The translations under genes were made by a program, and so were the position numbers. Shown in pieces: positions 14,898 through 17,235 of a stretch of DNA of 64,000 bases. The stretch is from assembly GCA_026994195.1 (NCBI GenBank), contig JALWRH010000088.1:1-64000 (forward strand), in the 5' to 3' direction. The notes beneath the pieces were generated by a model that did not search any database, had not been told where the DNA came from, and was given only the letters and a program-made list of their open reading frames with translations. This stretch comes from Sedimenticola sp. GTDB taxonomy: Bacteria; Pseudomonadota; Gammaproteobacteria; Chromatiales; Chromatiaceae. The stretch's first letter is position 1; every line of letters begins with the position of its first letter.

Positions 14898-15260
14898 CCA
14901 ATCAGCCAAAATCCAGGCTGGAGAGCGACAAAGTTTGGTTGCCGGGTCCACAATGACCCGGCAATCCGGTATATTCCCTGAGATCATCCACCGGGATTTG
15001 CATCACGGCGTAGTGGGCTGGCAAAGCCCTATAACGCCGATCCCTGTACAGTTGCCTCCCGCCTTTCAGCCTTCCTCACCCTGAACCAGCACAGTCAAGA
15101 GCGCGGCATTCTCGCCGCATCGACAGTTCCTCAAATATCCCCAGCACAAGCCATCATTCTTCGTTTATTCGACCGGTAGCAGGATCAGGCATTCATCCAG
15201 GTCTTGAATTGAGGCCCCATCAGCCTCATATCCGTTGCATCCACGATTGAGGAGCGCGAG
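14898..15260. other. 363-bp gap with two hairpins, no gene seen
   Basis: No convincing ORF. A perfect 9-bp hairpin at 14939-14964 (TTGCCGGGT / ACCCGGCAA, loop of 8) lies 41 bp after mscL and may act as its terminator, although the T-run is weak. A second, longer imperfect hairpin is at 15006-15039 (CGGCGT...ACGCCG with inner GGGCT/AGCCC). The promoter of the downstream S30AE-sigma gene must lie in 15040-15255. GAGGAG at 15249-15254 is its ribosome site. Confidence 0.5.
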
Positions 15261-16379
15261 ATGAACATCCGGTTTTCATACAGAAGAATCGACGACAACG
15301 AAAAGAAACAGCTCAAGGAGACGGTCAACAAGGACAGCAACGGCATCAGGGAAGTTCTGGGGAAGTTCGATAGCGATGCTGTGCGCCTGGAAGGCGCCGT
15401 AGAGAAGCATGGAAGTAAAGCTCTGTACAGGGCAAGACTGAAGCTGCACCTGCCGGGCAAAACCCTGGTAGCACTGGAAGAAGCCGGCAACGGCAATGCC
15501 GCCATACGCCAGGCATTTGCCGAGCTTCGCCGCCAGGTCAAGCGTTTCAAACACCTAGCAAAGAATGACTATTTGTGGAAGCGTCCAAAGCGCCGAGTGG
15601 AGCTGCGAAGCCAACTTAGCGGGAGCGCCGATTTAGACCGGGAGCAGTACAAGGAGTACGCCGATCTGGTGAAGCCTCACCTGCCCGAAGTGTATCATTT
15701 CATCCGCCGGGAACTCGCCTACCATCAGTCCCTGGGGGAACTGTCACCCGCAGACATACGGGCAGAAGAGGTGCTGGACGCCGTGGTCGCCCGGGGTCTG
15801 GAAGGCCTCAGCAACAGACCCCGGCACCTGGAAATCCTTCCCTGGCTGACGGGCATGGCCCTGGAAATCATTCAGGAAGAAATGCACGCTAGCCGTATTC
15901 GCCGCCGCCGGGTATCTACAGAAGATCTTGCGCCAACAGATCCCATGGACATCAGCGACGACGAAGACACCCGGATGTACGAGTTCTACCAGCCGGATGA
16001 GATCATCCGCATGGAAGACATCATTCCGAATCCAGAAAGCAACAACCCGGAAGAGGCAGAAGCCATTCGGGAGCGCGCTTTACTGGTTCATCATGCCCTT
16101 TCTCTGCTACCTCCCCCCTGGAGACATACTCTGGTGCTGGCAGACGTACATGGCATGAAAATGTCGGAGCTGGCCGAAATCCTCCATGAAACGCCTGAAC
16201 AGTTGCAGCAGTTACGAACCTGCGCAGAAGCCTTCATGCGAGACTGGCTGGGCCAGCACATGGTTCAGGATGACCTGGAGCAGACAACCACCAGGGAGTT
16301 GCTGGGATCGCCCCTGAGGGAACCACTGCCGGAAGAGCTGCAGGCCGAGATTCTGGAAAAAATCATACCCTTGGAGTAG
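15261..16379 (+). CDS. S30AE (HPF/RaiA) ribosome-hibernation domain fused to sigma-70-like regions
   Basis: Protein of 372 aa with an unusual architecture. Residues 1-105 match the S30AE ribosome-binding fold of HPF/RaiA (VRLEGAVEKHGSKALYRARL, HLPGKTLVALEEAGNGNAAI, AELRRQVKRFK). Residues 135-217 resemble sigma region 2 (HLPEVYHFIRREL, then PWLTGMALEIIQEEM and a basic RIRRRR). An acidic linker (about 220-268) leads to a region 4-like helix-turn-helix at 275-331 (LSLLPPPWRHTLVLADVHGM, MSELAEILHETPEQLQQLR). The ATG at 15261 follows GAGGAG. Family knowledge suggests the first part binds the 30S decoding region. Whether the second part still binds RNA polymerase or DNA is unknown. Monocistronic. 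Confidence 0.8.
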   Translation: MNIRFSYRRIDDNEKKQLKETVNKDSNGIREVLGKFDSDAVRLEGAVEKHGSKALYRARLKLHLPGKTLVALEEAGNGNAAIRQAFAELRRQVKRFKHLAKNDYLWKRPKRRVELRSQLSGSADLDREQYKEYADLVKPHLPEVYHFIRRELAYHQSLGELSPADIRAEEVLDAVVARGLEGLSNRPRHLEILPWLTGMALEIIQEEMHASRIRRRRVSTEDLAPTDPMDISDDEDTRMYEFYQPDEIIRMEDIIPNPESNNPEEAEAIRERALLVHHALSLLPPPWRHTLVLADVHGMKMSELAEILHETPEQLQQLRTCAEAFMRDWLGQHMVQDDLEQTTTRELLGSPLREPLPEELQAEILEKIIPLE

Positions 16380-16542: not shown

Positions 16543-17235
16543 CTATGCCTGCTTTTTTCTTTTGCCACCAGGCAATTTTCCTTGCCAGCCAAAAACAATC
16601 AGCAGTGCCACACAAATCATCCAGACTACACTTATGACATTGCCAAGAAGATGGTCTGAATTCGAACATAAGTCATGTTCAAGGCAATTTCTTGACAAGA
16701 ATTTATCCACAACAAATATAACGAACACAAACAAAATAATATTGTACATCAGTATTATGAGCGTTCTTTTCATCTTAGATGGGTAAACATATCCGCTCTC
16801 TTCTATTATTCTTTCAGTCAAGGCCTCTTCACTTGGCAGCCCATCTGATGATTTATTTATAACTATTGAACCAGTTAAGTAATCGTGTATTGCCTGGTGT
16901 TTTTTGGATGTCAAGACAACGACAAATGAAAGCCAACCAAGAAGTGCTTTAACAATGAATCTTATTGATGCAAGAACGATATTTATATTGTTATTTGTCC
17001 TGCTATTTACTACTTTTAGGCCAATAACGTGATGACCTATGGTTCCCCCTGTCAATGAAACGAGACCTGGCTCCAAGATTAATAGAGGCAAAAACAGGGC
17101 TGCTATTTTTACATATATATTTTCAACGCCAAACACATTAACCAATAGTAGTACCACAAGAAGCACAACAGGAATAATAATAGAGTCAACCAATACAGCC
17201 TGCACTCTTCTCAACAGACGGGGGTATGTATTCAT
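16543..17235 (-). CDS. RDD family membrane protein
   Basis: Integral membrane protein of 230 aa with an RDD domain in the first 125 residues (PRLLRRVQAVLVDSIIIPVV, GGTIGHHVIGLKVV, KKHQAIHDYLTGSIVI). Two further hydrophobic segments lie in the C-terminal half. RDD proteins are often associated with transport or Na+/H+ antiport, but no function can be assigned here. Codon use is AT-rich (many AAT, ATA, TTA, AAC runs) in contrast to the GC-rich neighbours, which suggests recent acquisition. It follows glmS on the same strand with a 42-bp gap. Confidence 0.8.
   Translation of the reverse strand: MNTYPRLLRRVQAVLVDSIIIPVVLLVVLLLVNVFGVENIYVKIAALFLPLLILEPGLVSLTGGTIGHHVIGLKVVNSRTNNNINIVLASIRFIVKALLGWLSFVVVLTSKKHQAIHDYLTGSIVINKSSDGLPSEEALTERIIEESGYVYPSKMKRTLIILMYNIILFVFVIFVVDKFLSRNCLEHDLCSNSDHLLGNVISVVWMICVALLIVFGWQGKLPGGKRKKQA

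Follow-up and report, generated by a model that had tools for sequence, protein, structure and literature searches.

Ribosome-hibernation factors of the HPF/RaiA (YfiA) type, including long HPF and RafH (PF02482), carry an N-terminal S30AE fold, and in long HPF and RafH the C-terminal part dimerises, blocks or stabilises ribosomes. A working sigma factor conserves its DNA-contact helices. The anti-anti-sigma factor PhyR is a sigma mimic that combines an ECF-derived sigma2-sigma4 fold, devoid of DNA-contact residues, with a receiver domain. A further hibernation system centres on Balon, an aeRF1-type protein whose operon partners include alternative sigma70 factors, RaiA, Hsp20 and HdeD (PMC10901736). 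Finally, the tLST island (also LHR or TLPQC) confers heat and chlorine tolerance and is widespread among bacteria from food and hospitals; E. coli, Klebsiella and many other bacteria carry such islands. The function of its gene orf11 was reported as unknown (PMC8290217), and the orf11 of LHR2 was reported as interrupted by an insertion (PMC5383660).

Here, we analysed a gene in a 64,000-nucleotide stretch of DNA (hereafter the window) from a Sedimenticola MAG (contig JALWRH010000088.1) whose product carries an S30AE fold and a sigma fold in one protein, and of whose family the orf11 protein of the heat-resistance island is one member. Like Balon operons, the loci of this family are stress operons that combine hibernation factors with Hsp20, HdeD and alternative sigma70 genes. 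However, whereas Balon is of the aeRF1 type, the hibernation domain of the fusion is an S30AE domain covalently joined to the sigma module. The open-access literature that we searched held no description of such a protein, although it may have been described elsewhere; as far as searchable papers show, this is the first protein described to link a ribosome-hibernation fold with the fold of a sigma factor.

Architecture of the fusion protein

The S30AE-sigma-mimic fusion gene is an intact open reading frame of 372 aa on the forward strand (15261-16379), with a ribosome-binding site, AGGAG, read from the sequence 6 nt before the ATG (15250-15254, forward strand, as are all features below unless stated). 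The S30AE (HPF/RaiA-like) domain occupies residues 1-105 (15261-15575). Pfam model PF02482 matched residues 17-98 of the window protein (E 2.6e-5; 25.3 bits against a gathering cut-off of 23.7) and 16 of 18 family members at E up to 1. The AlphaFold model showed the predicted S30AE topology, beta-alpha-beta-beta-beta-alpha. As this model was built from a five-sequence alignment and reached a mean pLDDT of 72.6 and a pTM of 0.58, its domain folds are usable, but the mutual placement of the domains is not. The modelled domain matched several RaiA/HPF chains and superposed on RaiA of P. urativorans (8rd8_D) with a Z score of 14.8 and an rmsd of 1.9 Å over 99 residues. Given that the S30AE probability from hhalign was modest (50-58%, E about 1e-4), it is this structural match that carries the S30AE half. 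Nevertheless, Pfam, topology and superposition agree, and the original prediction of an S30AE fold at residues 1-105 was borne out.

Comparison with 27 canonical HPFs revealed that the fusion shares the basic positions of HPF/RaiA in part, with basic character retained at K53, R57, R91 and R95. In contrast to HPF/RaiA, it is without the helix-1 basic positions, and the canonical basic positions 25, 28, 31, 32 and 88 are lost in the fusion family. It also adds a basic hinge, [KR]R..RR (residues 104-117, 15570-15611), kept in 33 of 34 members, in which K107, R108, R111 and R112 are gained, nearly invariant basic residues. Residues 1-118 together have a net charge of +14 and a pI of 10.5. Judged from these residues, RNA binding by the S30AE part is plausible. 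The window's genome also encodes a canonical rpoN-linked hpf, as do most of its relatives.

HPF/RaiA proteins also differ from the fusion in the C-terminal part, which here is sigma-derived. HMM, profile comparison and model concur that residues ~127-335 form an ECF-type sigma2-linker-sigma4 unit: NCBIfam TIGR02937 matched residues 133-324 (E 3e-11; 43.2 bits, just above the cut-off of 42.9), hhalign against four ECF sigmas of the same genome gave E 5e-12 over residues 128-332, and the best structural match was RpoE/EcfG bound to NepR (5uxx_C; Z 15.7, rmsd 2.7 Å, 161 residues). The unit consists of a sigma region 2-like domain (residues 127-220, 15639-15920), a linker that occupies the place of the sigma 3.2 finger (residues 221-262, 15921-16046) and a sigma region 4-like domain (residues 263-331, 16047-16253), and is followed by a weakly conserved acidic tail (residues 332-372, 16254-16376). 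The linker has a net charge of -12 and a pI of 4.1. Both the region 2- and 4-like segments and the strongly acidic linker between them had been predicted originally and were recovered here. The Pfam models named with that prediction fared unevenly: S30AE was found, as described above; Sigma70_r4_2 (PF08281) was sub-threshold in the window protein alone but matched all 18 family members; and Sigma70_r2 (PF04542) matched none of the 18 at E up to 1.

To characterise the sigma-like half further, we compared 34 family members with 26 control sigmas, almost all ECF-type, in one alignment. The sigma scaffold was retained in the family. However, the region 2.2 glutamine (DLVQE) was missing in all 34 members, with an invariant aspartate (D173 in the window protein) in its place. 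The 2.3-2.4 helix had a mean net charge of -0.9 compared to +3.5 in the controls (p 4e-10), and the region 4 recognition helix one of -1.2 compared to +4.0 (p 5e-11); these p values overstate the evidence because the sequences are related, but the shift is large nonetheless. No such charge shift was seen in the helices that served as internal controls, namely the 2.2 helix and the first helix of the HTH. Conservation is instead concentrated in the linker, where the motif E[FY][YWH]QPDE..R.ED is present in 34/34 members; the 12 most conserved residues of the entire protein lie there (FYQPDEIIRMED, 3.27 bits), within the window's motif YEFYQPDEIIRMEDI (residues 240-254, 15978-16022). A conserved linker motif in place of conserved DNA-contact helices is what would be expected of a mimic or docking module.

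This suggests that the sigma part probably does not read promoters and resembles a PhyR-type mimic. In common with PhyR, it has an ECF-derived sigma2-sigma4 fold, matches to PhyR models, no Pfam match for region 2 and no DNA-contact residues. Unlike PhyR, it has an S30AE domain instead of a receiver domain (no Pfam receiver match was found in the window protein or in the 18 family members), carries the conserved QPDE linker motif and occurs largely outside the NepR/EcfG setting. Of the two roles originally envisaged, a reprogramming of RNA polymerase by an active sigma is therefore not supported, as the sigma2 and sigma4 residues that grip promoter DNA are lost across 34 members; a repurposed sigma part is the better fit.

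Distribution and genomic neighbourhood

The architecture is conserved among homologues: 34 proteins of alpha-, beta- and gammaproteobacterial origin have it. Full-length orthologues were present in 9 of 15 genus genomes, counting the window's own, and the other eight were 53-78% identical to it. In a class sample of 370 genomes, profile searches recovered 13 other genomes with a full-length fusion and, at a contig edge, one fragment; a phylum sample of 397 genomes gave two with a full-length fusion and a single copy truncated at its 5' end. With tblastn, relatives were found in 301 plasmids, chiefly of Klebsiella, Enterobacter, Acinetobacter and Escherichia. The family occurs on plasmids and chromosomes across three classes. 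Since the architecture is kept across many bacterial families, it is no accident; an assembly artefact or accidental fusion is ruled out by its occurrence in the genus genomes and in other families, and chance resemblance by the matches that both halves gave in HMM, profile-profile and structure comparisons, together with the conservation in 34 proteins. The fusion of an S30AE domain with a sigma-like domain is real.

The window protein and orf11 of tLST/LHR are homologous over their full length, as supported by the family alignment and by tblastn (26% over residues 1-338, E 4e-11). On the E. coli plasmid examined, the gene is annotated as 'hypothetical protein' and lies between hdeD-GI and trx-GI of the tLST/LHR island, a place that identifies it as orf11 of the published gene order. 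Among 5,426 complete E. coli genomes, orf11 was found in 152, at 156 chromosomal places and 44 on plasmids. Identity between the tLST protein and chromosomal members is 38-39%; one of these members (L012) is above the S30AE cut-off with E 1.3e-6. The one IMG/VR match (L097, IMGVR_UViG_3300045950_000267), though listed as viral, encodes a ClpB/ClpK-type ATPase, the fusion protein, a rhomboid, a ClpP-like protein and a thioredoxin. It resembles a stress island of a bacterium or plasmid, and a viral origin was rejected.

Outside the genus, relatives are mostly located in protein-quality-control islands with ClpK, FtsH, Hsp20, YfdX, HdeD, Trx, KefB and DnaK/GroEL. At least one protein-quality-control or stress neighbour (FtsH, Hsp20, YfdX, CbpA/DnaJ, HtpX, PsiE, Trx, KefB, DegP or DnaK) was present at 11 of 16 further loci, with some of the remaining five on short contigs. 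On an Acinetobacter plasmid, the fusion gene follows hdeD-GI; the Burkholderia copy is followed by groES-groEL-dnaK and the Cupriavidus copy by hsp20, dnaK, groEL and groES open reading frames, named by inspecting their translations; and for alphaproteobacterial copies the gene order is ClpK-type ATPase, fusion, hdeD. The annotated neighbours at the plasmid loci included no anti-sigma gene.

In contrast to orf11, the window copy is a lone chromosomal gene outside any island, next to glmS. The copies of L015 and L017 are likewise lone chromosomal genes, and synteny with glmS and the surrounding genes is conserved among the three. In the window, the fusion and glmS are separated by a gene for a putative membrane protein that looks RDD-like on inspection (16543-17235, reverse strand). 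This gene seems to be a local insertion, as in L015 and L017 the fusion is followed almost immediately by glmS. The window's genome also encodes two YfdX-family genes away from the fusion (G000:C40:17541-17957 and G000:C105:35146-35628) and may thus hold dispersed parts of a tLST-like stress repertoire.

Stand-alone sigma-like relatives without an S30AE domain also carry the QPDE linker motif. On the Azospirillum brasilense plasmid NZ_CP059451.1 (L026:4543-6817), such a gene, with the motif WYQPDE, lies in a stress island, flanked on one side by DUF5335 and on the other by a baeRF family 10 gene (E 5.8e-12), which encodes an aeRF1-type protein, as Balon is. This link of the sigma-like module to hibernation in trans is a single instance and only supportive. 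In Phenylobacterium (L142), DUF5335 and a sigma-like gene occur without baeRF. That the sigma-like module regularly has baeRF as a partner in trans was rejected, as this held for Azospirillum alone and the stand-alone relatives of Phenylobacterium and G479 had no baeRF match beside them. The window's genome likewise gave no match to baeRF family 10.

Promoter region

A sigma-32 (RpoH) type promoter, CTTGAA-N15-CCTCATAT, is present as an exact pattern at 15203-15231, where it ends 29 nt before the fusion ATG; 0.09 such sites would be expected in the window. Alignment of the upstream regions of nine genus orthologues revealed a single conserved block, CTTGAA-N14/15-C[CG][TG]CATNT, and the window gene likewise has the RpoH-type pattern CTTGAA-N13/15-C..CAT.T. 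The promoter is kept before 9/9 of these orthologues, at a spacing to the ATG of 29-36 nt in eight and 169 nt in the ninth. In pattern searches, on which all of these statistics are based, the genome contained seven occurrences compared to one for a reversed control. One of them lies 93 nt before a lon gene (named from its translation), and the dnaK promoter of the same genome is of the same type (GTTGAA-N14-CCCCATCT). Both lon and dnaK are classical RpoH targets. Taken together, the conserved site and its counterparts at lon and dnaK suggest that the fusion gene is most likely under heat-shock control, and stress-linked expression, as in HPF/RaiA, is to be expected. A sigma-70 type promoter was also considered, but the only candidate was a 9/12 match near 14947, and the conserved site is the RpoH-type one.

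The gene had been thought to have its own long leader. The intergenic gap is indeed long (363 bp), but with a promoter that ends 29 nt before the ATG, the predicted leader is short, about 20-25 nt. No Rfam match to an RNA element was found in the gap. The groES gene, tried as another promoter control, was set aside because it has no RpoH-type site but a CIRCE-type inverted repeat in its upstream region (TTAGCACTC...GAGTGCTAA; L141, G000:C5). This suggests HrcA control of groES, with dnaK and lon having sigma-32-type promoters instead.

Possible function of the fusion

We tentatively propose, giving the whole explanation a little under an even chance, that the protein is a heat-shock-type hibernation factor that forms a ribosome-docked, DNA-blind sigma platform for a universal partner, likeliest core RNA polymerase. 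Under heat or oxidative stress, RpoH would turn on the fusion gene, and the basic S30AE part would dock on idle ribosomes by analogy with RaiA/HPF. The DNA-blind sigma module with its QPDE motif would then bind a partner found in all hosts, most likely core RNA polymerase, which would be occupied without starting transcription. Ribosome and polymerase could thus be parked together and protected until the stress is over. The partner should be universal: the family has spread among alpha-, beta- and gammaproteobacteria with no anti-sigma gene consistently beside it, and a gene that is kept when it moves from one class to another should bind something present in every host.

In favour of this proposal, we count the S30AE and sigma folds, the lost DNA-contact residues, the conserved linker motif, the RpoH-type promoter before all nine orthologues (with lon and dnaK as positive controls), the stress-island context and the occurrence in three classes, as well as the Azospirillum module beside baeRF and the sigma70 genes among the operon partners of Balon. 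The lost basic positions of HPF and the uncertain domain placement count against it. The region 2.2 change from glutamine to aspartate could also weaken polymerase binding. Furthermore, the deletions reported to lower heat or chlorine resistance do not include that of orf11, although the assay is blind to stasis and recovery (PMC8407380). For the unexplained orf11 of tLST, the analysis provides a concrete domain architecture and a testable mechanism. The broader idea of a new regulator class that physically links both halves of gene expression, in which a mobile heat-induced protein, spread between species in heat-resistance islands, would hold a promoter-blind sigma mimic on hibernating ribosomes and park core polymerase there during stress, is more doubtful.

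The loss of DNA-contact residues would also suit two other roles. If the sigma-derived half were a purely ribosomal module, that is, an extension that dimerises, blocks or stabilises ribosomes off the transcription machinery, the fusion would be comparable to other S30AE proteins with C-terminal extensions, and its model does match the S30AE part of such chains. However, the sigma fold is retained end to end, and the linker motif in stand-alone relatives that lack an S30AE domain indicates that the sigma module has its own job, so that we consider a purely ribosomal role unlikely. Alternatively, the sigma mimic might bind an anti-sigma factor and thereby free a true stress sigma, with the S30AE domain coupling this PhyR-like partner switch to the state of the ribosome. 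The PhyR sigma-like model PF22233 matched 9 of 18 members (best 1.5e-8) and NF006623 matched 17 of 18, PhyR chains aligned with the fusion model at Z 9.6-10.5, and the structure that the sigma part matches best is a sigma in complex with the anti-sigma NepR. Yet the fusion is without a receiver domain, the plasmid loci showed no annotated anti-sigma neighbour, and mobility across classes speaks against a lineage-specific partner; such a switch seems improbable to us.

Compared with the proposed ribosome-docked platform and these two alternatives, a true ECF-like sigma with an S30AE sensor domain and unusual promoter recognition is very unlikely. It would account for the TIGR02937 match, and a 'sigma 24 like' factor was named a hallmark of the M. 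flagellatus island (PMC8290217). However, it is at odds with the complete lack of PF04542 matches in the 18-member set and with the loss of basic residues from both DNA-contact helices across 34 members. Many records annotate family members as sigma-70, sigma-28 or FliA, which would also fit a true sigma, but these names are probably misleading.
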